A stretch of DNA of 40,638 nt from Clostridia bacterium (GCA_012838615.1 DUOV01000100.1:1-40638); one strand, 5' to 3'. Shown: positions 13,864-27,390, counted from the stretch's first letter. Program-made: numbers and translations. Notes: generated by a model from the sequence alone, not told the origin.

Positions 13864-13978
13864 TTAAAATAATAATGTTGCTGACTAAGATGGTTGTTTT
13901 TTTATTCTCGTTTTGATGATAGAATAAGAACAATGTATGTGAAATTTCTTATTGAGTTAAGGTATAGAGGTGGTAATA

Positions 13979-15472
13979 ATGCTTTACGAAAGTACAAGGA
14001 TGGAAAGTTTACCTGTTGCTTCAGCGCAAGCAATTCTTTCTGGAATTGCTCCTGATGGTGGACTATTTGTGCCAATGAATGAAGTAACCATAAATACAAA
14101 AGAATTAGAAAAACTGGTCGATTTGTCATACCAGGCTCGAGCAGTATTTGTTTTAAAACAATTTCTAACCGATTTTAATGAAGAAGAATTAAGAGAATGT
14201 GTGGAAGATGCCTATAATAGTAAAAACTTTGATCACGCTTCCATAGCTCCTTTGACTTTGCTCAATGATAATTTGGCCGTACTAGAATTGTGGCATGGAC
14301 CAACATATGCTTTTAAAGATATGGCCTTACAATTATTACCCCGTTTATTGATGAAAAGCGCCGAGAAGGTAGGGGATGAATCTGATTATGTAATTTTAGT
14401 TGCAACTTCAGGCGATACTGGCAAAGCTGCCTTAGAGGGCTTTAAAGATGTTCCTAAAACGAAAATACTTGTTTTTTATCCTGTTGAAGGAGTAAGCCAG
14501 GTTCAAAAATTACAAATGATTACCCAAGAAGGGCACAATGTTGGTGTAGTAGCTGTGGAAGGAAATTTTGACGATACACAAAATGGCGTTAAAAAGATAT
14601 TTAACGATCAAGAGTTTAAAGCCCGACTTTTAGAAAAAGGTCACAAATTTTCATCTGCTAATTCTATAAATTGGGGTCGGCTTGTACCACAGATAGTTTA
14701 TTATTTTTCCGCTTATTTAGATTTAGTTAAGACAAAAAAGATTTCCTTGGGGCAAGAGATTAACTTTGTGGTTCCAACAGGTAACTTTGGTAATATTTTG
14801 GCAGGTTTTTATGCTAAAAGCATGGGGCTACCCATTTATAAGTTGATCTGTGCTTCCAATCAAAATAACGTTTTAACTGATTTTATTAATACAGGTGTTT
14901 ATGATCGGAATCGTACTTTTCACAAAACTATTTCTCCCTCGATGGATATTTTAATCTCCAGTAATTTAGAACGATTACTTTTTGAACTTTCCGTTGAACC
15001 CGGTAAAGTTAAGGGATGGATGGAGGATTTAAAAAGGGCTGGAAGATATGAAATAGATGAGGATCTTAAGAATAAAATAACCTGTAATTTTTGGGCTGGA
15101 TTTAGCTCAGACTTAGAAACCAAGCAGCGAATCAGAAAGATTTATGAAAACTATCAATATGTAACTGATACTCATACTGCAGTTGCTTGGGACGTCTATG
15201 AAAAATATAGATATGAAACAGGAGATAAGCATCCTACCGTAATAGTTTCAACTGCAAGTCCTTTTAAATTTAACACAAGTGTGTGTGAAGCTATTTATGG
15301 TAAGAATACTATAGAAGGAAAAAGTGAACTTGAAATATTAAAATTATTGGCCGCTAAAACAGGACTGGAAATCCCTAAAGCCTTAAATCAACTAGAACAA
15401 AAAGCTATTATTCATAACGAAGTATGTCAGAAAGAAGAAATGCTTATGCAGGTAGCTGAATTTTTATTTTAA
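13979..15472 (+). CDS. thrC: Threonine synthase
   Basis: This PLP enzyme converts O-phosphohomoserine to threonine. It has about 497 residues and belongs to the longer class of threonine synthases, with an N-terminal extension (LYESTRMESLPVASAQAILS, GGLFVP). The PLP lysine lies in GPTYAFKDMALQLLP, and VATSGDTGKAALEG and VVPTGNFGNILAGFYAK bind the phosphate groups. ATG 13979 is chosen over GTG 13970, because AGAGGTGG (13965-13972) is the ribosome binding site. It is alone; homoserine genes are not in the window. Confidence 0.96.
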   Translation: MLYESTRMESLPVASAQAILSGIAPDGGLFVPMNEVTINTKELEKLVDLSYQARAVFVLKQFLTDFNEEELRECVEDAYNSKNFDHASIAPLTLLNDNLAVLELWHGPTYAFKDMALQLLPRLLMKSAEKVGDESDYVILVATSGDTGKAALEGFKDVPKTKILVFYPVEGVSQVQKLQMITQEGHNVGVVAVEGNFDDTQNGVKKIFNDQEFKARLLEKGHKFSSANSINWGRLVPQIVYYFSAYLDLVKTKKISLGQEINFVVPTGNFGNILAGFYAKSMGLPIYKLICASNQNNVLTDFINTGVYDRNRTFHKTISPSMDILISSNLERLLFELSVEPGKVKGWMEDLKRAGRYEIDEDLKNKITCNFWAGFSSDLETKQRIRKIYENYQYVTDTHTAVAWDVYEKYRYETGDKHPTVIVSTASPFKFNTSVCEAIYGKNTIEGKSELEILKLLAAKTGLEIPKALNQLEQKAIIHNEVCQKEEMLMQVAEFLF

Positions 15473-15589
15473 TAACAGCAGTTAAAAGAAATGCACGCAT
15501 TTTCGGTCCAAGTCCGCGTTTCAGTATTGTATTCCTTGACAGTTTGTGTCAAAGGGCAGAGTTTTATAAATTCCTACAATAAAACATGA

Positions 15590-15622
15590 AGACCTTGGTT
15601 TCCATACCAAGGTCTGTTTTTT
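15590..15622 (+). terminator. Terminator between thrC and trpB
   Basis: A perfect 10-bp stem (AGACCTTGGT / ACCAAGGTCT), loop TTCCAT, then a run of U. It lies between convergent thrC and trpB and probably serves thrC. The remaining 117 bases of this gap hold no gene I can support. Confidence 0.9.
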
Positions 15623-15627
15623 GATAA

Positions 15628-16821
15628 CTACTTATTGAAAAGTTCAAACACTTGTTGTACGTCTTTGTCACCCCTGCCAGAAAGATTAACAATTATAATT
15701 TGATCCTTTCTCATTTTTGGGGCAGCTTTAATAGCGTAGGCAACAGCATGGGAACTTTCCAAGGCAGGTATGATACCTTCAATTTTTGAAAGCAACTTAA
15801 AAGCCTCTAAAGCTTCATTATCAGTTACTGCAACGTAATCTGCTCTTCCTATTGCTTTCAAATAACTGTGTTCAGGTCCAACACCAGGGTAATCTAGGCC
15901 TGCCGCTATAGAATGGGTGGGAAGAGGGTTTCCTTCTGAATCGGCAACTACATAGCATTTAAAGCCGTGAATTATACCTGGAACGCCAGCTGTCAGAGGT
16001 GCAGCATGGCGACCTGTTTCTAATCCATCTCCTCCTGGTTCAACACCGACAATTTTTACATCTTTATCGTCAAGAAATGGTGCAAACAAGCCAATCGCAT
16101 TACTTCCGCCGCCTACACAAGCGGTGATCAAATCTGGAAGCCGACCTTCTTTCTCAAGAATTTGCTTTCTGGCTTCTTGGCCAATAATTGATTGAAAATG
16201 TTTCACAATTAGAGGGTAGGGATGGGGGCCTACTGCAGAACCTAATAAATAATAGGTGTTTTTATAGTTGGCGATTAAGTCTTCAAGCGCTACGTCTACC
16301 GCATCTTTTAACGTTCTCAAACCTCTTGTCACAGGTACTACTTTTGCACCCAGAAGTTCCATCCTGAAAACATTGAGAGCCTGACGTTTAGTGTCTTCTT
16401 CACCCATGTAAATCGTACAATCTAAACCAAACAAAGCACAGGCAGTAGCTGTAGCAACTCCATGTTGTCCGGCACCTGTTTCAGCAATAACCCTTTTTAA
16501 TCCCATTTTTTTGGCTAATAAAACTTGGCCCAGAACATTATTGATCTTATGGGCACCTGTATGGTTTAAATCTTCACGTTTTAAATATATTTTTGCACCA
16601 TTTAAATGTTCTGTTAATCTTTTAGCAAAGTACAGGGGATTTGGTCTACCCACGTACTCTAGTAGGTAGTAATTAAGCTCCTCAAGAAAATCAGGGTCAT
16701 CTTTATAGGCTAAAAAAGCCTTTTCAATTTCTTTAAGGGCTGGTTGTAACTGTTCAGGGACAAAACACCCCCCAAAGTCACCAAAAAAACCATTTTGACA
16801 TTCTTCTCTTACTAACCTCAT
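15628..16821 (-). CDS. trpB: Tryptophan synthase beta chain
   Basis: This enzyme condenses indole with serine to give tryptophan; PLP binds the lysine in [20 protein letters not shown]. It has 397 residues, the standard TrpB1 length. Other markers are [33 protein letters not shown], the phosphate-binding [10 protein letters not shown] and the C-terminal [15 protein letters not shown] precedes the ATG. No trpA or other trp gene is adjacent, so it is an orphan beta chain that may pair with a distant TrpA or salvage indole. Only about 150 bases separate it from the divergent regulator, too little for a T-box leader. Confidence 0.96.
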
Positions 16822-16935: not shown

Positions 16936-16975
16936 TATGTTAGTTAACAAAGATGTAGCATTAGAGGTGAAGGTA

Positions 16976-17638
16976 GTGGGTAAACCCAGATTAAAATTTA
17001 CAAGTAAAAGTGAATATGTATATCAAGTTTTAAGAGAACGTATTATTCAGGGAGAACTTCAAACAAATAAACGCTACAAAGCGGTAGATATAGCTGCAGA
17101 ACTAGGCGTAAGTAGAACTCCGGTCAGCAATGCAGTTAAAATTCTTGCCTCACAGGGTTATGTAACTTTATTGCCAAGTGTAGGATTTGAAATAAAACAG
17201 CTAACCCTCAAAGAAGTTGAGGGAATTTTATTGATACGAGGGGCTTTAGAGGAACTGGCGATTGAACTTGCAATGGATAATGTTTCTCCTCGAGATATTG
17301 CTGATTTACGGAAAATTTTGCCTACTTGTGAAAGAGCAATAGAAAGGCAGGACAGCAGAAAATATAGTGAATTAAATAAAGAGTTTCATTTTAATTTATA
17401 TCAGTTTGCTGATCTTCCTAATCTAATTGAAACTTTTGAAACTCTTTGGATTCATGAAGGTTGGTATAGTAAAGAACTAAAAAACAACCCTGAAAATATA
17501 TTAACTTTAGTTAAAGACCATTATGAAATTGTAGATCTTATTGAGAAAAAAGAGAAAAATAGAATTAAAGCTTTAGTCAGACGTCATATATATAACTGTT
17601 TACATGTTGTTTCTGAATCATTATCTAACATTAAATAA
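16976..17638 (+). CDS. GntR-family regulator, FadR/FCD subfamily (paralogue 1)
   Basis: This DNA-binding regulator of about 220 residues has a winged helix (about 10-75: SEYVYQVLRERIIQGEL, AAELGVSRTPVSNAVKILAS) and an all-alpha FCD ligand domain (about 85-215) with the likely metal ligands in NKEFHFNLY, KDHYEIV and VRRHIYN. The GTG at 16976 follows AGAGGTGA at the right distance and makes the N-terminus match the second regulator (KSEYVY / KSQAVY). The ATG at 16937 would overlap the promoter. It is divergent from trpB and clearly paralogous to the regulator at 18655 (shared EGWY and DHY motifs), so it may respond to a related ligand and could control the dehydrogenase operon. Confidence 0.88.
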   Translation: MGKPRLKFTSKSEYVYQVLRERIIQGELQTNKRYKAVDIAAELGVSRTPVSNAVKILASQGYVTLLPSVGFEIKQLTLKEVEGILLIRGALEELAIELAMDNVSPRDIADLRKILPTCERAIERQDSRKYSELNKEFHFNLYQFADLPNLIETFETLWIHEGWYSKELKNNPENILTLVKDHYEIVDLIEKKEKNRIKALVRRHIYNCLHVVSESLSNIK

Positions 17639-18654: not shown

Positions 18655-19308
18655 ATGGGTAATATTTCCTATGAGTTTAAAACAAAGTCCCAGGCTGTTT
18701 ATACTGCTATTAGAGAAATGATTACTAGCGGTGAACATGGGCCTGATGAAATATTTAATTCAGTTGATTTAGCCAAAAAGTTTGGCGTAAGTAGAACACC
18801 TGTTACGGAAGCAGTTAAAATGCTTGAAGCGAAAGGCTTTGTTACTGTTTTGCCTGGAGTTGGCTTTAAAATCCGTAAGCCTAGTACTATGGAAATCTTA
18901 GAGCTATTAGAAATTAGGTGTGCGCTGGAATTATTAGCAATAAGAAGAGCTGTCAGGCTGCGCTGTCAGAAAGATGTTGCAAACTTAGAAAACATATTAA
19001 ATAAAATAAAAAACTGTGTAAAAACAGAAGAAATGGATGAATATTTACGACTAAACGAGGAATTTCATTTTGCTTTATATGATTTATCAAGGTATAACCA
19101 TTTGATCCAATTGCAAAGGGATTTATGGGATTGGGAAGGTTGGTACGCCAATGAATTATACGACACACCTCATGATATAGAAGTTTTGCTTGAGGATCAT
19201 TACAAAATTGTCAAGTGTCTTAAAGATAGAGCAATTGAGGAATCAGAAAAAGTTGCACATGAGCATTGGCGTCATTGCGTAGAGGTTTTACAAAAAAAAA
19301 TAAAATAA
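18655..19308 (+). CDS. GntR-family regulator, FadR/FCD subfamily (paralogue 2)
   Basis: This 217-residue regulator probably controls the following genes. The winged helix (about 10-72) includes KSQAVYTAIREMITSG and KKFGVSRTPVTEAVKMLEAK. The FCD ligand domain (about 80-215) has NEEFHFALY, EDHYKIV and HEHWRHC as likely metal/ligand residues. Sequence and length match paralogue 1 throughout. GGAGG lies six bases before the ATG, and the dehydrogenase gene starts 21 bases after the stop, so regulator and enzymes appear co-transcribed. FCD regulators usually bind small organic acids and release DNA, so an induced catabolic operon is expected. Confidence 0.92.
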   Translation: MGNISYEFKTKSQAVYTAIREMITSGEHGPDEIFNSVDLAKKFGVSRTPVTEAVKMLEAKGFVTVLPGVGFKIRKPSTMEILELLEIRCALELLAIRRAVRLRCQKDVANLENILNKIKNCVKTEEMDEYLRLNEEFHFALYDLSRYNHLIQLQRDLWDWEGWYANELYDTPHDIEVLLEDHYKIVKCLKDRAIEESEKVAHEHWRHCVEVLQKKIK

Positions 19309-19329
19309 ATAACTTAAAGGAGGATAATA

Positions 19330-20040
19330 ATGGATTTTACTAACAAAGTTGCAATTGTTACAGGTGCCAGCCAAGGGCTTGGTGTAGAAATTGCTATGCA
19401 GTTTGCTAAAAATGGTGCAAGTGTAGTTTTAGTTGCAAGAACTTATTCTAAAATTAAAAAACTTGCTGATGAAATAGTGGCTTCCGGTGGTAAAGCCCTT
19501 GCTTGCGCTGCTGATATTTCCAAAGAAGAAGATGTTAAAAACTTAGTAAATCAAGCGGTAGAAACATTTGGTACAGTTGATATTCTCGTTAATAATGCAG
19601 CAGCACACAAAGCAATTCCGGTTAAGGATCTATCTTTAGAAGACTGGAACCTTCAGATTAATGTTAATTTAACCGGTACATTTCTTTGCTCCAGAGAAGT
19701 ATTGAAACCTATGATGGCACAAAAGTCTGGCAAGATTATTAACATTTCTTCTAGTTCTGCTAAACACTTCTTCCCTGGCTTTGGCGCTTATGCGGCTTCT
19801 AAAGGTGGGATTGTAAGTTTTAGCCAAACTTTGGCTGAGGAAGTTAAAGATTATAATATTCAAGTAAATGCAATTTATTTAGGTTTAACTAACACAGAAT
19901 ATACTCGTTCAAGAATGGATGTAGATCCGTCTACAATGTTACAGCCTGATCAAGTTGCAGACGTAATTATGTTTTTAGCTTCTGAAAAATCTTCTGCTAT
20001 TGTCGGCGCCGCCATTGATGTTTTTGGTAATAGGAAATAA
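19330..20040 (+). CDS. Short-chain dehydrogenase/reductase (SDR)
   Basis: This 236-residue classical SDR oxidises an alcohol or reduces a ketone with NAD(P). The cofactor site is TGASQGLG (about 11-18), NNAA follows, and the active site is a serine in INISSSSAKHFF plus YAASKGG (Tyr-x3-Lys). An acidic residue after beta-2 is missing (VARTYSKIKK), which leans towards NADP but is not decisive. It is the first enzyme of the operon, 22 bases before the first Mch homologue. Acetoin or diol dehydrogenases of this class often accompany acetoin-type E1/E2 complexes, so it may make or consume the hydroxyketone substrate. The substrate is unknown. Confidence 0.9.
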   Translation: MDFTNKVAIVTGASQGLGVEIAMQFAKNGASVVLVARTYSKIKKLADEIVASGGKALACAADISKEEDVKNLVNQAVETFGTVDILVNNAAAHKAIPVKDLSLEDWNLQINVNLTGTFLCSREVLKPMMAQKSGKIINISSSSAKHFFPGFGAYAASKGGIVSFSQTLAEEVKDYNIQVNAIYLGLTNTEYTRSRMDVDPSTMLQPDQVADVIMFLASEKSSAIVGAAIDVFGNRK

Positions 20041-20062
20041 ATATATTTAGGAGGTGGAATAA

Positions 20063-21022
20063 ATGATTAGTATCAATAAGAAGGCTATGGTAGTAGTAAG
20101 AGAGATCTTGAAAAACGCTGAAGATTTAGGTTGTCAAGTTCATAAGATGGATTGTGGCGCAACTGTAGTCGATATGGGGATTAACTGCCGAGGTAGTTGG
20201 GAAGCAGGTCTTTTATTTACTCGTGTTACTCTTGGAGATTTAGCCAAGGTTCAGTTAGGAGAATTTTATTTAAATGAAGATTATTCATTTTCGGCAGCAG
20301 AAGTTTTTGTAGAACAGCCTTTAATCGCTTGCTTAGCTTCCCAAATTGCTGGATGGAAATTAGGTGAAGGTGAATTTGCCACCATTGGTTCTGGCCCTGC
20401 TAGAGCTGTAGCAGCCGTAGAAACAGATCAGTATTTAGAAATGACACCGTACCGTGACAAAAATAACGAGGTTGTTCTTTGCATTCAGGATACAAAACTT
20501 CCTGATGAAAGAATTGGTCTTTGGGTAGCAGAGGCCTGTAAAGTAAAGCCTGAAGATGTATATTTACTAGTTGCTCCTAGTGCTTGTATAGTAGGTTCTA
20601 TTCAAGTTGCAGCAAGGATGCTGGAGCAGGTATGCCACAAAATGTATGAAAAAGGCTTTGATGTTACCCAAGTAGTTGCTTGTCGTGGTAAAGCTCCCGT
20701 AGCCCCAGTTGTAAAAGACGAAGTGAAAGCTATGGGTAGAATTAACGACGCCATACTTTACGGCGGTGAAACTGAGTTCTGGGTAGACTCAACTGACGAA
20801 AAAATTGCTAAAGTAATTCATCAGTTGGTTTCCAAGACATCGTCACCTAATTATGGAGAATTATTTGCTGATATTTTTGAGCGAGCTGGTAAAGATTTTT
20901 ACTATATAGATCACGATGTTCATTCAATTGCTAAGATTCAAATCCACAACATCAATAGTGGTCGTTCATTTGTAGCTGGAGAAATCAATTATGAAGTACT
21001 AGAGAGAAGCTTTCTTAAATAA
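20063..21022 (+). CDS. Methenyl-tetrahydromethanopterin cyclohydrolase homologue, copy 1
   Basis: This 319-residue protein is full length and colinear with archaeal Mch, which interconverts methenyl- and formyl-H4MPT. Diagnostic stretches are NAEDLGCQVHKMDCGATVVD, LASQIAGW (about 91-98), GSGPARA (109-115), KLPDE, LLVAPSACIVGSIQVAARMLE, AMGRINDAILYGGE and the C-terminal FVAGEINYEVLERSF. The residues shown to be catalytic in Archaeoglobus Mch (Arg183, Glu186) correspond to Arg185 and Glu188 in ARMLE. It lies between the SDR and E1-alpha genes with 22-24 base gaps, so it is part of the enzyme operon itself. Whether it uses H4MPT, another pterin or a different cyclic substrate is not known. Confidence 0.88.
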   Translation: MISINKKAMVVVREILKNAEDLGCQVHKMDCGATVVDMGINCRGSWEAGLLFTRVTLGDLAKVQLGEFYLNEDYSFSAAEVFVEQPLIACLASQIAGWKLGEGEFATIGSGPARAVAAVETDQYLEMTPYRDKNNEVVLCIQDTKLPDERIGLWVAEACKVKPEDVYLLVAPSACIVGSIQVAARMLEQVCHKMYEKGFDVTQVVACRGKAPVAPVVKDEVKAMGRINDAILYGGETEFWVDSTDEKIAKVIHQLVSKTSSPNYGELFADIFERAGKDFYYIDHDVHSIAKIQIHNINSGRSFVAGEINYEVLERSFLK

Positions 21023-21046
21023 AAACTTTGAAGGAGGAAGAATTAG

Positions 21047-22030
21047 ATGGCCTTAAGTAAAGAAAGATTGCTAAAACTATACGAAGACATGTTTTTAATT
21101 CGCCGTTTTGAAGAAGAGGTTGAAGTTTACGCTAAAAATGGAACTATTCCTGGATTTGTGCATTTAAGTATTGGTCAGGAAGCTGCTCAAGCTGGAATCA
21201 TTGATTGTTTAAGAAAAACTGACTACAAATTCCCAGATCATAGGGGTCATGGTGCTATTGCTTTGTGCGGAACTGATAAAAAGAGAGTAATGGCTGAAAT
21301 ATTTGCTAAAGCTACCGGTATTAACGGCGGACGTGGCGGTAGTATGCACGTTCACGATTTAGAAGTTAGGAATATGGGCTTTAATGGCATTCAAGGTTCA
21401 ACAGTAGTTACCTGTTTAGGTACAGCTTTTGCTTCCCAATATAGAGGAACCGATGATGTTACAGTTGTCTTTTTAGGAGACGGTACTTTAGGCGAAGGTA
21501 CCTGCCATGAAAGCTTAAATATGGCAGCTACCTGGAAATTACCTATAATTTACTGTTTATTAAATAATCAATATGCTATTTCTACCCATTACACAGAAGC
21601 CCATCCTCAACAACAGCTATCTACTTGGGCGAAAGGATATGAAGTGCCTTCGGAAACTGTAGACGGCAATGATGTGGAAGCAGTAGTAGAAGCTACAGAA
21701 AGAGCAATTGAAAGAGCAAGAAAAGGTGAAGGTCCAACATTTATAGAGTTTATGACTTACCGTTGGCAAGGGCACTTTGCAGGCGATCCAGCTGCCTATC
21801 GACCTGATGATGAAGTTAAAGAGTGGATTGAGAATAGAGATCCTATTAAATTGTTAAAAGAAAAGTTGATTTCCAGAGAAGGTTGTTCTGAGGAAGAATT
21901 ACAAAAAATCGAAGCTAAAGCTAACGAAGAAATTGCTGAAATGGTTAAATTCTGTTTAGAAAGTCCAGATCCAGTTGCTGAAGATGCACTTAAAAATGTA
22001 TATGCTGATAGAGAGGTGGAAGATAGATAA
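21047..22030 (+). CDS. 2-oxo-acid dehydrogenase E1 alpha subunit, acetoin-dehydrogenase-like
   Basis: This 327-residue subunit carries the thiamine diphosphate site: GDGTLGEGTCHESLNMAATW (about 144-163) and the NNQYAIS segment that closes the GDG...NN motif. Other family stretches are IPGFVHLSIGQEAAQAG, DHRGHGAIALCG and GGRGGSMHVHD. The overall pattern (FVHL, HRGHG, GGSMH) is closer to acetoin dehydrogenase AcoA than to pyruvate dehydrogenase, but subfamily calls for E1 are easily wrong. Its stop codon overlaps the start of the beta gene (TAATG), which fits equal production of the two subunits. GAAGGAGG precedes the ATG. Confidence 0.93.
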   Translation: MALSKERLLKLYEDMFLIRRFEEEVEVYAKNGTIPGFVHLSIGQEAAQAGIIDCLRKTDYKFPDHRGHGAIALCGTDKKRVMAEIFAKATGINGGRGGSMHVHDLEVRNMGFNGIQGSTVVTCLGTAFASQYRGTDDVTVVFLGDGTLGEGTCHESLNMAATWKLPIIYCLLNNQYAISTHYTEAHPQQQLSTWAKGYEVPSETVDGNDVEAVVEATERAIERARKGEGPTFIEFMTYRWQGHFAGDPAAYRPDDEVKEWIENRDPIKLLKEKLISREGCSEEELQKIEAKANEEIAEMVKFCLESPDPVAEDALKNVYADREVEDR

Positions 22031-23007
22031 TGAGTAGAATTATTTCTTACGGCAAAGCTATTAACGAAGCCTTACATCAAGAGATGGAACGAGACGATAG
22101 TGTATTTATTTTAGGTGAAGACGTTGCCAAAATGGGTGGAGACTTTGGTATTACCCAAGGTATTTGGCATAGATGGCCTCACAGGGCTAAAGATACTGCT
22201 TTATCTGAGCAAGCAATAATAGGTCTTGCTAATGGCGCGGCTATTTGTGGCCTACGACCTGTGCCCGAGATTATGTTTGCGGATTTCATTACTTGCTGCT
22301 ATGATCAGCTAGTTAATAACGCTGCTAAATTAAACTTTATGTACAATGGTAAAGCTCATTGCCCAATCACAGTTCGTACAGTACAAGGTGCAGGTATTCG
22401 CTGTGCTTATCACCATTCCCAAAATGTTGAAGCATGGTTGATGAATGTTCCGGGTTTAGTTATCGTAATGCCGACAACTCCTTATGAAGCTAAGGGACTC
22501 TTAATTTCTTCAATTCGTAACAACAACCCAGTTGTCTTTTTAGAACACAAACTGCTTTACAATACAAAGGGTGAAGTACCGGAAGAACCATACACCATTG
22601 ATCTTTATAAAGCGGAGATTGAAAGGGAAGGTAAGGATATTACCATTGTAGCTACTCAAACTGCCTTAAAACTTGCCCATGAAGCTGCTGCTATTATGGA
22701 AAAAGAAGGAGTAAGCGTTGAGATTATTGACCCACGTACGATTATGCCTTTAGATAAAGAAACTATTATTAACTCAGTAGCTAAAACAGGTAGACTGATT
22801 ATTGCCCATGAAGGTCCTAAATTTGGCGGTTTTGGCGCTGAAATCTCAGCTATTATTTCCGAACACGTATGGGAATATTTACGAGCACCAATTATGCGTG
22901 TGACCTCTCTAGATGTACCAGTTGCATTTGCACCAGTAATGGAAGATTATGTACTGCCCAAAACAGAGCATGTTGTTAAGGCATGCAGAGAAGTTATGGA
23001 ATATTAA
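22030..23007 (+). CDS. 2-oxo-acid dehydrogenase E1 beta subunit
   Basis: This 325-residue transketolase-type subunit completes the E1 heterotetramer. The N-terminus ISYGKAINEALHQEME, GEDVAKMGGDFGITQGI, DTALSEQAIIGLANGAAICG and RPVPEIMFADFI are typical, as is the C-terminal DVPVAFAPVMEDYVLPKTEHV. It starts in the stop codon of the alpha gene and is followed 15 bases later by E2. Together with alpha it would decarboxylate or cleave its substrate on thiamine diphosphate and reductively acylate the lipoyl arm of E2. Confidence 0.94.
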   Translation: MSRIISYGKAINEALHQEMERDDSVFILGEDVAKMGGDFGITQGIWHRWPHRAKDTALSEQAIIGLANGAAICGLRPVPEIMFADFITCCYDQLVNNAAKLNFMYNGKAHCPITVRTVQGAGIRCAYHHSQNVEAWLMNVPGLVIVMPTTPYEAKGLLISSIRNNNPVVFLEHKLLYNTKGEVPEEPYTIDLYKAEIEREGKDITIVATQTALKLAHEAAAIMEKEGVSVEIIDPRTIMPLDKETIINSVAKTGRLIIAHEGPKFGGFGAEISAIISEHVWEYLRAPIMRVTSLDVPVAFAPVMEDYVLPKTEHVVKACREVMEY

Positions 23008-23022
23008 AGGAGGCACTACCTA

Positions 23023-24549
23023 ATGGCTACTATTGTAGAAATGCCTAAATTTGGACTATCTATGGAAGAGGGAACGATCGCTTCTTGGTTAAAAGAAGAA
23101 GGGGAAGTTGTTAAAAAAGGTGAACCTATTGGTGAAATAACTACAGAGAAAATCACTAATACTGTAGAAGCCCCGGAAGATGGGATTTTAATTAAAATTG
23201 TTGCCCAAGAAGATGAAACTTTACCTTGTGGAGCTACAATTGCTTATATTGGTGAAGAAGGGGAAACTATTTCGGATTCTTCCGAAGAAGCTACCTCTAG
23301 TTCTGCAAGTGAAGTGTCTGCCAGTCAAACCGAATCAGATATTACTTACGTAGAAATGCCGAAATTTGGCTTGTCTATGGAAGAAGGTACAGTTGCTACT
23401 TGGTTTAAAGCTGAAGGTGACTCTGTAAATGAAGGCGAGACTTTGGCAGAAATAACTACAGAAAAAATTACCAATACAGTAGAAGCACCAGCTAATGGTA
23501 TTTTAAGGAAAATATTAGTCCCGGAGGGAGAAACTGTTGCCTGCGGCGTTCCTATCGGTATAATAGCTTCAGCCGATGCTGTTTTACCAACTGATATTGA
23601 AAAACCGGAAGCTAAAACTGTAATGGAACCAGAAATTACTAAAGAAGAAGCTCCAAAGGAGCAAGTTGTAGTACAGACTCATAAAAGACCTTTAGATGAA
23701 ATAGTGATTACTCCTAAAGCTGAGAAGCTGGCTAAAGAAAAGGGAGTTGACTATAGCTATATTGTAGGTACCGGTATAGGTGGCGCAATTACCATAAAAG
23801 ATATTAAAAACTACTTGGCTAGCGGTGGGGCAAGACAAACACCTGTTCAGAGTGGAATAGGGCCTGCGACAGAAACAAAGATGAGTCAGATGCGAGGCAT
23901 TATTTCTGACCGTATGATGGCGAGTTTAAGAGACTCTGCTCAAACTACCATGGTTATGGATGTTGATGTAACTGATTTGACTAAACTTTATAAGCTAAAA
24001 AGAGAAGAATTTAAAGCGAAAAACGTTAAGCTAAGTTACACAGCTATACTAATAAAAGCCGTAGCTAATGCTCTTAGTAAGCATGAGCGTTTTAGAACTG
24101 TAATTACCGAAAATAACACTTTACTCACAAAATCCGAAATCAATATAGGTATTGCAGTTGATATTGAAGATGGTTTGGTTGTTCCTGTTTTAAGGAATGT
24201 AGATCAAAAAGACATGGAAACTATTTGTAATGAACTAGAAGATCTGGCTAAAAGAGCAAGAGAAAATGGCCTTTCAATGGATGAACTAAGTGGCGGTACT
24301 ATGACTATTACCAACTTAGGTATGTTCGGTATTAAGTACTTCACACCTGTCTTAAATCTGCCTGAAAGTGCTATTCTAGGTGTTGGCGCAACTACGGAGC
24401 AACCTGTAGTTGTGGATGGTGGAATCCATGTTAAATCTATAACGACATTAAGTTTAACTCATGATCATAGAATAATTGATGGTGCTCCAGCTGCCAGATT
24501 TTTAAACGAAATTAAACAGATTTTACAAGAACCACAAACATTATTTTAG
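23023..24549 (+). CDS. Dihydrolipoamide acyltransferase E2 with two lipoyl domains
   Basis: This 508-residue core protein passes the acyl group from E1 to CoA. Two near-identical lipoyl domains (about 1-80 and 107-183) each contain EMPKFGLSMEEGT and TTEKITNTVEAP, with lipoyl lysines at Lys43 and Lys148. The TEKITN context resembles acetoin-dehydrogenase E2 (TSKITN). Ser/Glu- and Pro-rich linkers follow each. A peripheral-subunit-binding domain (about 228-266, ITPKAEKLAKEKGV, GTGIGGAITIKD) and a catalytic domain (about 275-508) complete it, with the active-site THDHRIIDG at about 479-487. No E3 (lipoamide dehydrogenase) gene is in the window, so E3 must be supplied from elsewhere. Confidence 0.94.
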   Translation: MATIVEMPKFGLSMEEGTIASWLKEEGEVVKKGEPIGEITTEKITNTVEAPEDGILIKIVAQEDETLPCGATIAYIGEEGETISDSSEEATSSSASEVSASQTESDITYVEMPKFGLSMEEGTVATWFKAEGDSVNEGETLAEITTEKITNTVEAPANGILRKILVPEGETVACGVPIGIIASADAVLPTDIEKPEAKTVMEPEITKEEAPKEQVVVQTHKRPLDEIVITPKAEKLAKEKGVDYSYIVGTGIGGAITIKDIKNYLASGGARQTPVQSGIGPATETKMSQMRGIISDRMMASLRDSAQTTMVMDVDVTDLTKLYKLKREEFKAKNVKLSYTAILIKAVANALSKHERFRTVITENNTLLTKSEINIGIAVDIEDGLVVPVLRNVDQKDMETICNELEDLAKRARENGLSMDELSGGTMTITNLGMFGIKYFTPVLNLPESAILGVGATTEQPVVVDGGIHVKSITTLSLTHDHRIIDGAPAARFLNEIKQILQEPQTLF

Positions 24550-24561
24550 GTAATTTAATAT

Positions 24562-24596
24562 AAGGGTGCTTAAACTAATTTTTAAGCACCCTTTTT
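24562..24596 (+). terminator. Strong intra-operon terminator/attenuator after E2
   Basis: A perfect 13-bp stem (AAGGGTGCTTAAA / TTTAAGCACCCTT) with a six-base loop and a U tract. Only 27 bases, most of them a ribosome binding site, separate it from the next Mch homologue. No promoter fits after it, so the downstream genes most likely depend on read-through. Confidence 0.9.
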
Positions 24597-24623
24597 AGAA
24601 TAAGCTAGGAGGGAAAATATAAC

Positions 24624-25583
24624 ATGATAAGTATCAACAAACACGCCATGAAATTAGTAAGGAAACTTTTAGAAGAAGCAGAAGATATTGGTTGCAAAGT
24701 TCTAAAACTTAAAAACGGCGCTACGGTTATAGATATGGGTGTAGAAGCTCCAGGTAGTTGGCAGGCTGCAAAATATTTTACTGAAATTAATATGGCTGGT
24801 TTAGGAACCTGTAATTATTTTAATTACGACTTAGATGAAAAACTTAGTGTCCCTGCAGTAGAAATTTTTGTGGATAATCCTATTCTTGGTTGTTTATGCA
24901 GTCAAATTGCTGGTTGGCCACTTGGCTCTGGAGATTTTGCTGCTATAGGATCGGGTCCGGCCAGAGCTTTAGCTGCTGTTAAAGAAGATCATTGTTTTGA
25001 TTTAACCAGCTACCGTGATAACCACTATGAAGCTGTTTTGGGTGTACAAGCAGTTGATTTACCAGATGAGGCTATGGCTGAAAAAGTTGCTGCAGCTTGT
25101 AAAGTTAAACCAGAAAATTTATATTTATTAGCTCACAAAAGTGCAAGTGTAGTGGCGACTGTTCAAGTATCAGGCCGAATTATAGAACAGACAATTAACA
25201 AAATGATCCGTAAAGGTTTCGATTTAAACCAAATCTTTTTGGCCCGTGGTTACTGTGTAGTTGCTCCTGTGGGTACTGATGAGTTAGACGCTATGGGTAA
25301 AATTAATGACTCATTATTATATGGCGGTGCATCTGAGTTTTGGGTTAAATCAACTGATGAGGAAATACAAAGGGTGTTGCCCCAGTTAGTAACTAAGAGT
25401 GCAAAAGATTACGGAAGACTCTTCCTTGATCTGTTTGTGGAAGCTAATAAAGATTTTTATCAAATGGATTTAGATATTCACTCTCCTGCCAAAGTACAAA
25501 TTTATAATATGAATACGGGTAATGTCTTTGTCGATGGAGAAATACGTAAAGATTTATTAAAGAAAAGCTTTTTCAATTTGTAA
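24624..25583 (+). CDS. Methenyl-tetrahydromethanopterin cyclohydrolase homologue, copy 2
   Basis: This 319-residue Mch homologue is closest to copy 1, starting with the same MISINK and matching it without gaps over most of its length. It keeps LCSQIAGW (about 91-98), GSGPARALAA (109-118), LPDEAMAEKVAAACKVKPEN and the catalytic-type pair Arg185/Glu188 in SGRIIE, plus AMGKINDSLLYGGASEFWV. The segment APV-A-PV is altered to CVVAPVGTDEL. It is the first gene after the intra-operon hairpin. All family active-site positions I can place are kept, so it is probably an active enzyme, on an unknown substrate. AGGAGGG lies upstream of the ATG. Confidence 0.87.
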   Translation: MISINKHAMKLVRKLLEEAEDIGCKVLKLKNGATVIDMGVEAPGSWQAAKYFTEINMAGLGTCNYFNYDLDEKLSVPAVEIFVDNPILGCLCSQIAGWPLGSGDFAAIGSGPARALAAVKEDHCFDLTSYRDNHYEAVLGVQAVDLPDEAMAEKVAAACKVKPENLYLLAHKSASVVATVQVSGRIIEQTINKMIRKGFDLNQIFLARGYCVVAPVGTDELDAMGKINDSLLYGGASEFWVKSTDEEIQRVLPQLVTKSAKDYGRLFLDLFVEANKDFYQMDLDIHSPAKVQIYNMNTGNVFVDGEIRKDLLKKSFFNL

Positions 25584-25680
25584 TTCTATAAAATTTTACT
25601 TTAGTGTCTTCCTTAGCCTAAAAAAATGCGTTGTAAGGCAAGTTATCAAGAAATACTCAATACTAAAGGAGGTAGGAGTA

Positions 25681-26655
25681 TTGTCTGAATTTCAATTCAA
25701 CACGAGCATTAATGACAGAAGTGCTGAAATCATAGAAAAGAAAGTTATTCCAAATGCCGACAAGCTAAATATTGAAATTCATCGCTTAAATAATGGTGCT
25801 ACTGTTTTAGATATGGGAATCAATGCTAAAGGTGGTTGGTTGGCCGGCAAATATTTTACGGAAATTGGTTTAGGTGGCTTAGGTGAACTTTCTTTTACAA
25901 AAATGAAGATTGGTCGCTACTTTATGCCGGCATTAAAAATTAGCGTGGATCTTCCGACAATTGCTGAAATGTCCTCCCATGTGGCTTTCTGGCGTGTTCC
26001 CTGGCAGGGGAAAAACGTAAATATTTCAGGTCCAATTCGTTCCATAAAAAGGCCGGATATTTTTTCACAGGCAGTATCTTATCAGGATAAATGGGCCAAA
26101 AAGATCGTGGCGGAAATTCAAACTACAGAAATGCCCGATGAAGCTTTTACATCTCACCTTGCAGAGCAAGCAGGATATAGTCCTAAGGATTTATATGTAA
26201 TAGTTGCTAGGACAGGAACTTTAGTAGGCGCTATTCAAGTAGGGGCTCGAAACGTTGAACAAACGCTACCAACACTTTTTGACCATGGACTTAAAATGGA
26301 TTGGATCGTCCAAGCAAACGGTATTACTCCGATGGTATCAGTAGTTGATGATGAGTTAATCGCATATGGCCGAGTTAATGATAGCTTGATTTACGGTCAG
26401 GAAAGTAATGTTTATGTAAACTGTGAAGATGAGGATATTATAAGCATTTTAGACCGAATTCCATTTTATAAAAATAAAGATGTTTTTGGTATTCCATTCC
26501 AAGATCTTTTTGCTAGATCCGACAATGACTGGACAAAAGTTTCCAGAGACTGGGATGCTCCATGTAAGGTTAACTTATTCAACATTAAAACTGGACACAG
26601 TTTTAGTACAGGTCGGTTATCCCATGAAGTACTGGAAAAATCTTTTTTAGGTTAA
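25681..26655 (+). CDS. Mch homologue, copy 3, divergent pocket
   Basis: This 324-residue Mch homologue has an N-terminal extension of about eight residues and starts at a TTG preceded by AAAGGAGGTAGG. The Arg/Glu pair is kept (Arg190, Glu193 in ARNVE), but other pocket motifs differ: SQ-x-AGW becomes SHVAFW (about 99-104) and GSGPARA becomes ISGPIRS (about 115-121). LYVIVARTGTLVGAIQVGA and RVNDSLIYGQES still show the fold clearly. The 97-base gap before it contains no hairpin or clear promoter. Altered substrate specificity, or a subunit role beside copies 2 and 4, are both possible. Confidence 0.83.
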   Translation: MSEFQFNTSINDRSAEIIEKKVIPNADKLNIEIHRLNNGATVLDMGINAKGGWLAGKYFTEIGLGGLGELSFTKMKIGRYFMPALKISVDLPTIAEMSSHVAFWRVPWQGKNVNISGPIRSIKRPDIFSQAVSYQDKWAKKIVAEIQTTEMPDEAFTSHLAEQAGYSPKDLYVIVARTGTLVGAIQVGARNVEQTLPTLFDHGLKMDWIVQANGITPMVSVVDDELIAYGRVNDSLIYGQESNVYVNCEDEDIISILDRIPFYKNKDVFGIPFQDLFARSDNDWTKVSRDWDAPCKVNLFNIKTGHSFSTGRLSHEVLEKSFLG

Positions 26656-26667
26656 GGAGGAGAACAA

Positions 26668-27390
26668 ATGATGCAAAGCATATCGGTAAAAAATTTTAAA
26701 CCAGTAGCTTCCATTAAGAACGGAAATATTGTAGATATAGGTGTGAACGCACCAGGGGGCTGGTCGGCTGGTAAAGAGTTAATTTATTTATTTATGAACG
26801 GGATGGGTTACGTAAACTTTGGGGAAATGGCATTAGAAGGTTTTGCTTTGCCTACAGTAGACACATATTTCGATAACCCGGCTGAGGTTTGCTTAGCTTC
26901 CATGTTAAATGAGAAAAAAATAGGCGAGCATACAATGATTGGTCCTGATACTTGGGGCGAAGATAACTTTTGTTATTTTGAAACCTTGGAAGTAAAACCT
27001 GATCTCAGCCAAAAAACAGACCAGACTATTATTGTGGCAAGTCCCTTAAGCCTTGTATCTGCTATTTATAATTCTGCACTAGTAGTACCTTTAGCAGTTA
27101 AAAAATTAGTGAATATGGGAGTAAATCTTGAGCAAATAGAATGGGCTTGGGGAAGTTCTCCCTTGGCTACTTTAAGTGAACTTCCAGATTTGGTTGCTAT
27201 GAGAAAAGAGGCTGCACTTTGTTATGGCGGTGTGGTAAGTATATGGCTTCGTGTCGAGGACAAACTTCTGCAAGATATAGTTAATAAGTGGGAAGGACTA
27301 GGGGAAATAAGATTACATAACCTTCCAACTGCAAAGACTTATGTAGGTGGTAAGCTAGACCTTAAAAAACTAAGTGAAAAAATATTATAA
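26668..27390 (+). CDS. Mch homologue, copy 4, shortened and lacking the catalytic residues
   Basis: This 240-residue protein is recognisable from NGNIVDIGVNAPGGWSAGKE near the N-terminus, YFDNPAEVCLASML, VASPLSLVSAIYNSALVV and the C-terminal IRLHNLPTAKTYVGGKLDLKK. Relative to its neighbours it lacks about 15 N-terminal residues, the SQ-x-AGW and GSGPARA motifs and a stretch of the second domain. The Arg and Glu of the catalytic pair align with Leu and Pro (SALVVP). The frame is open from end to end and both termini align, so it is not a frameshifted fragment. GGAGG precedes ATGATG; the gene starts 12 bases after copy 3. It is probably a non-catalytic partner or a binding protein. Confidence 0.72.
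   Translation: MMQSISVKNFKPVASIKNGNIVDIGVNAPGGWSAGKELIYLFMNGMGYVNFGEMALEGFALPTVDTYFDNPAEVCLASMLNEKKIGEHTMIGPDTWGEDNFCYFETLEVKPDLSQKTDQTIIVASPLSLVSAIYNSALVVPLAVKKLVNMGVNLEQIEWAWGSSPLATLSELPDLVAMRKEAALCYGGVVSIWLRVEDKLLQDIVNKWEGLGEIRLHNLPTAKTYVGGKLDLKKLSEKIL

Follow-up and report, generated by a model that had tools for sequence, protein, structure and literature searches.

An operon of a Clostridia bacterium joining non-canonical Mch homologues to a lipoyl-dependent E1/E2 complex, with a possible role in N-heterocycle catabolism

Introduction

Proteins of the Mch family, represented by the profiles PF02289 and TIGR03120 and by the structures 1QLM, 4GVQ and 4FIO, are taken as markers for methanopterin-linked C1 metabolism. 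Acetoin and pyruvate dehydrogenase operons carry their genes in the order E1-alpha, E1-beta and E2, with lipoyl domains. An SDR followed by a TPP-dependent E1 and a lipoyl E2 is a usual route from an alcohol through a ketone to acyl-CoA. Anaerobic purine and urate clusters (xanthinase; the reductive urate pathway) contain amidohydrolases, xanthine-dehydrogenase-type enzymes and reductases, and the part of the source consulted (PMC12507026) presents them without Mch, E1/E2, RibD-like or FolB proteins. For folate and pterin degradation, the first steps alone are known, from the soil bacterium Variovorax, where carboxypeptidase G and a pterin deaminase act (PMC9513972).

Here we describe an operon in a stretch of 40,638 nucleotides from an uncultured anaerobic Clostridia bacterium (GCA_012838615.1 DUOV01000100.1:1-40638, hereafter the window), which is real, conserved and unusual. 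The related clusters share amidohydrolases, xanthine-dehydrogenase-type enzymes and reductases with the purine and urate clusters, and would share ring deamination with the Variovorax route; in contrast to both, they encode Mch homologues. In the literature searched, no published description of such a Mch-E1/E2 operon or pathway was found; a preliminary description of this DNA had also taken such a pathway to be undescribed.

Gene content and organization of the operon

All the open reading frames were confirmed on the + strand at the coordinates in Table 1, each operon gene has a GGAGG-like ribosome site, and the gaps from GntR2 to Mch4 measure 21, 22, 24, -1, 15, 74, 97 and 12 bases. These coordinates, the mostly short gaps and the Pfam/NCBIfam profiles bear out the gene identities and the one-direction operon structure given in the preliminary description. 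Since the 74-base gap between E2 and Mch2 holds a T-tailed hairpin (-19.1 kcal/mol, z -4.1), Mch2-4 may form a second or attenuated transcription unit. The window operon joins two sets that are separate elsewhere, the Mch1/E1/E2/Mch2 block and Mch3/Mch4, and contains no importer or deaminase gene itself. The GntR proteins heading related operons match regulator 1, upstream of the operon, more closely than GntR2.

Table 1. Features of the operon and the regulator gene upstream, in window coordinates
Feature	Position	Strand	Basis or remark
GntR/FCD regulator 1	16937..17638	+	Profile match; 37% similar to GntR2
GntR/FCD regulator 2 (GntR2), first gene of the operon	18655..19308	+	Pfam/NCBIfam
SDR oxidoreductase (adh_short)	19330..20040	+	Profile; same-place orthologues 50-54% in related operons
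Mch1, non-canonical Mch-family protein	20063..21022	+	R183/E186 kept, E140->Q, F280->H
TPP-dependent E1-alpha (E1_dh)	21047..22030	+	Profile match
TPP-dependent E1-beta (Transket_pyr/C)	22030..23007	+	Profile match
E2 acyltransferase	23023..24549	+	Two lipoyl domains, E3-binding domain, catalytic domain
13-bp hairpin followed by T, terminator/attenuator-like	24562..24593	+	Between E2 and Mch2
Mch2, non-canonical Mch, sister clade of Mch1	24624..25583	+	Profile, tree, alignment
Mch3, non-canonical Mch	25681..26655	+	Profile, tree, alignment
Mch4, degenerate Mch3 partner	26668..27390	+	Catalytic Arg/Glu absent

The Mch homologues form clades of their own

Profile searches keep the four proteins within the Mch family: PF02289 scored 365 bits for Mch1, 355 for Mch2 and 249 for Mch3, each over the full profile length, and 79 for Mch4 (in two stretches). 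Against the TIGR03120 equivalog cut-off of 228.8, Mch1 (335) and Mch2 (321) pass, Mch3 (222) just misses and Mch4 reaches 66. Mch1-3 are full-length paralogues; Mch4 had been counted with them, but its sequence of 240 aa, aligned with four relatives, lacks the catalytic pair and is truncated and degenerate, unlike a normal cyclohydrolase. The AlphaFold model of Mch4, of low confidence (pLDDT 63), had significant matches to Mch structures only.

The catalytic residues of Mch, which we take to be R183 and E186 (A. fulgidus numbering), are retained in Mch1, Mch2 and Mch3 and in all 26 full-length non-canonical Mch proteins aligned. Position 140 is Glu in 11/11 canonical sequences and Gln in each of the 26, among which Phe280 is replaced by His in 21; Mch1-3 differ from known Mch at E140Q, F280H/D and a changed C56. 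In the tree, a single clade (support 100/99) united the archaeal proteins with those from bacterial clusters of the H4MPT type, and the window Mch1-3 fell outside it. Mch1 and Mch2 are sister clades (98/94), Mch3 and the Mch type of contig C215 form separate supported clades, and the non-canonical set comprises, besides Mch1-3, two more paralogue types. The host genome has six Mch genes, four in the window operon, one on C215 and one on C175.

H4MPT and C1 partner genes

The beta-RFAP synthase gene was found in none of the 12 genomes with only non-canonical Mch, which include the single-contig G133 and G001 (the host genome is 95% complete), and in 8/10 genomes with canonical Mch (p=1e-4); three of the ten canonical genomes (G267, G308 and G329) were assigned by score and not by tree. 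Canonical Mch occurred without RFAP synthase in two genomes. As a separate observation, the canonical-clade Mch loci L043 (G124) and L077 (G155) have no Ftr/Fhc genes nearby although their Mch is canonical, their genomes lack RFAP synthase, and one of the two loci lies near a BMP importer. Known Mch loci have Ftr/Fhc neighbours, which were present at 7/9 canonical loci, whereas they were found beside none of the 19 non-canonical loci, where the neighbours are importers and deaminases; no Ftr was found anywhere in G001, G016, G099, G188 and G371. Fae was not found in the host genome, the one genome searched for it.

A plain H4MPT pathway was therefore rejected for the non-canonical-only genomes, on the missing RFAP synthase and the unlinked Ftr/Fhc genes (and, for the host genome, Fae), and the same data lend no support to the earlier idea that a formaldehyde-level carbon from a hydroxyketone, held on a pterin-like carrier, is processed by the Mch homologues. 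The search for H4MPT genes proposed earlier nevertheless gave a divided picture in the host: beta-RFAP synthase and Fae were not found, whereas two strong Ftr homologues (C10:793-1215, locus L068; C191:13233-13655, locus L069) and FhcA/B-like genes were present, away from the operon. Both Ftr homologues adjoin BMP importer and amidohydrolase genes, and that of L069 also lies beside ATP-grasp, FhcB- and FhcA-like genes at the contig end, with a FAD oxidoreductase nearby. Because of these two Ftr homologues, one of them beside FhcA/FhcB-like genes, the network of the host may include some C1 chemistry.

The Mch homologues could be true C1 enzymes working with a tetrahydropterin carrier that is novel or taken up from outside, such as scavenged methanopterin, with Mch interconverting methenyl and formyl, Ftr/Fhc releasing formate and E1/E2 forming acyl-CoA from a C1 donor. 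The retained Arg/Glu pair, the equivalog scores of Mch1 and Mch2 and the Ftr/Fhc relatives of the host would suit this reading, as would a formate-dehydrogenase-like gene on C215 (named by sequence reading) and the nearby importers, which could supply a pterin. We nevertheless regard it as unlikely, given the absences of RFAP synthase, Fae and linked or any Ftr described above, and a single cofactor would hardly account for the several diverged Mch copies in each genome.

Ftr homologues of yet another, third type, with weak scores of 82-96 bits, were also seen in C80 of the host (L070), G048 (L071) and G133 (L072), in clusters with zinc dehydrogenases, an FGGY kinase, an amidohydrolase and an ECF transporter, L070 and L071 having in addition a DeoC/LacD-type aldolase.

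Conservation of the block across genomes

The neighbourhood search for Mch beside E1/E2 recovered the same block in other genomes. The order GntR-SDR-Mch1-E1a-E1b-E2-Mch2 is kept in UBA5767 (L028), CSMAG_109 (L029), G016, G099, G163 and G133 and partly present in G286 (L083) and G153 (L076), and the Mch1-E1/E2-Mch2 block spans several Bacillota families, on which ground chance or artefact was rejected. In G016, G099 and G163, a same-strand run starts with a RibD-like reductase, an amidohydrolase, a BMP binding protein, an ATPase, two permeases and a lipoate ligase and continues with GntR, SDR, Mch1, E1a, E1b, E2, Mch2 and an FMN flavoprotein, the G163 run having been read in part and its RibD-like gene coming from a separate search. 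Mch3-Mch4 pairs in G001, G048, G237 and G371 lie near flavoprotein, FolB, BMP importer and amidohydrolase genes, and some of these loci also have aldehyde or alcohol oxidoreductases.

Threonine synthase lies near the Mch operon in the window (13970-16821), L028, L029 and L037, with trpB in three of the four; as pathway genes both were rejected, being ordinary biosynthetic enzymes by NCBIfam in synteny across different families. In G061, a Mch1/amidohydrolase/RibD-like cluster (L036) is decayed, its genes fragmented; the pathway can therefore be lost.

The E1/E2 complex

The operon encodes what defines a 2-oxo-acid or acetoin dehydrogenase, E1-alpha, E1-beta and a lipoyl E2 with E3-binding domain. 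The gene order and lipoyl domains are those of acetoin and pyruvate dehydrogenase operons, and E3, lipoate ligase or LipB-like genes occur near some cluster copies; E3 itself is not encoded in the operon, an E3-like gene lying upstream in L028 and G133. The window operon differs in that the E1/E2 genes are embedded between Mch1 and Mch2 together with an SDR gene, and in an Asn, invariant in the nine cluster orthologues, at an E1-beta site occupied by His in 1IK6 and 1UM9 and by Gln in B. stearothermophilus PDH. The His-to-Asn change was dropped as proof of a non-acid substrate in view of that Gln. No acetoin E1 was among the best PDB matches of the window E1, whose similarity is of the PDH type; E1/E2 may have an acyloin-cleaving role.

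The PDH-type similarity, and the position of Mch1 and Mch2 flanking E1/E2 in most loci, could also mean that the operon is an ordinary acetoin/2-oxo-acid dehydrogenase operon in which the Mch proteins serve as accessory subunits, with a scaffold or regulatory function. This is highly improbable: the catalytic residues persist throughout the non-canonical set (26/26), and the Mch3/4 and Mch5 types are found in loci that lack E1/E2 yet carry BMP, flavoprotein or amidohydrolase genes.

Importers, reductases and FolB paralogues

Across the phylum (399 genomes), a RibD-like reductase was found in 10/10 genomes with Mch1-type proteins versus 3/389 others (p=1e-17), or, by genus, 6/6 versus 2/261. 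Of the three exceptions, one (G262) is 76% complete and belongs to the genus of G016. In L113, L115 and L116 as well, RibD-like genes adjoin those of amidohydrolases and/or BMP importers. Separately, in L113 and L116 a corrinoid-binding protein and a transporter-like membrane protein adjoin two RibD-like genes, an amidohydrolase and a BMP importer.

The BMP importers are of the base/nucleoside type. BMP-type ATPase genes, by a query that may catch other ABC ATPases, lay near 15/19 non-canonical versus 2/9 canonical loci, and a flavoprotein near 10/19 versus 0/9, in counts that include related genomes and a small control set of nine canonical loci. Many neighbours were named from sequence reading, representatives alone being checked against Pfam/NCBIfam, and the families are broad.

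The Mch-linked FolB paralogues stand apart from the housekeeping FolB that their genomes also encode. Such paralogues are present in each of the four Mch3/4 loci outside the window and in the G133 Mch1 locus, where the gene lies ~3 kb from the Mch1 operon; a double FolB accompanies a BMP importer, a flavoprotein and an aldehyde oxidoreductase (AOR) on host contig C128, and a tandem FolB lies beside an XDH-flavoprotein-RibD-amidohydrolase group in G213. The sixth Mch gene of the host, on C175, occurs with flavoprotein, BMP, E1/E2, two RibD-like and two amidohydrolase genes, and a pterin-binding protein and a LOG-type hydrolase are encoded upstream of the L028, L029 and G133 operons. As an observation apart, double FolB-domain proteins of ~240 aa (L106-L110), weakly like FolB and possibly a new T-fold enzyme, are found beside amidohydrolases (L107, L110) and RibD-like/XDH genes (L110).

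The BMP binding protein is nearer to 3s99 and the atrazine-binding 6pi5 than to PnrA/TmpC 2fqw, the cluster amidohydrolases resemble 8-oxoguanine and 5'-deoxyadenosine deaminases, xanthine-dehydrogenase-type genes occur in two loci and the reductase is similar to RibD_C. All four features would agree with a purine substrate, in which N7-C8-N9 forms an N-C-N unit like that of N5-C-N10: the Mch homologues would open the imidazole to a formamidopyrimidine, Ftr/Fhc relatives would deformylate it, the RibD-like protein would handle the ring-opened aminopyrimidine, and SDR and E1/E2 would degrade the sugar-derived chain. We consider this variant quite unlikely, as the dedicated FolB paralogues and the pterin-binding protein speak for pterins, an aromatic imidazole resists hydrolysis unless it is first activated, and the anaerobic purine pathways, in the part of the cited source consulted, have no Mch.

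A proposed role in heterocycle catabolism

On balance, the operon is probably a module of a catabolic network for a pterin- or purine-type N-heterocycle. An undescribed breakdown of a heterocycle, with Mch enzymes recruited to it, is more likely than a formaldehyde module, and the alternative already raised in the preliminary description, recruitment of the Mch fold for another cyclic substrate, fits the tree, the residue changes and the conserved neighbourhood much better than its formaldehyde-carrier idea. Because of FolB and the pterin-binding protein, we infer a pteridine as the favoured ring class over a purine, towards which the BMP and amidohydrolase relatives lean; each of the four families concerned (FolB, RibD, amidohydrolase, BMP) is promiscuous, which weighs against any substrate assignment.

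In the catabolic route proposed, a BMP or ECF importer would take up the heterocycle, an amidohydrolase would deaminate it, and the RibD-like reductase and FMN flavoprotein would reduce the product. The SDR may convert an alcohol of the side chain into an alpha-hydroxyketone or oxo group by oxidation, after which the lipoyl-dependent E1/E2 would cleave the oxidized chain to acyl-CoA. FolB cleaves the side chain of dihydroneopterin, and its paralogues could be the alternative side-chain cleavers in sister clusters. The Mch homologues, with the water-activating Arg/Glu kept, would act on the deaminated heterocycle and not on methenyl-H4MPT, opening or closing one of its rings or an amidine (N-C-N) unit; the replacement of E140 by Gln, an acid by an amide, with the general base kept, might suit a ring in which an amino group is replaced by oxygen. 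Mch1/Mch2 and Mch3/Mch4 would act as pairs, Mch4 presumably being a non-catalytic partner.

More tentatively, these clusters may represent an undescribed anaerobic pathway for complete pterin catabolism across several Bacillota families, a possibility that we hold with some doubt. It would deaminate and reduce the pterin, cleave its side chain to acyl-CoA through FolB or through SDR and E1/E2, and open the ring with Mch-derived hydrolases, C1 enzymes of the methanogenesis type thereby treating the pterin as food and not as a cofactor.

Automatic annotation would assign Mch1 and Mch2 to methanopterin-linked C1 metabolism, which here would be incorrect or, at the least, without support. Should the heterocycle reading be true, a core C1 enzyme family has been turned to a new reaction, and the genes described here would constitute a set for anaerobic pterin breakdown or for a new purine route.
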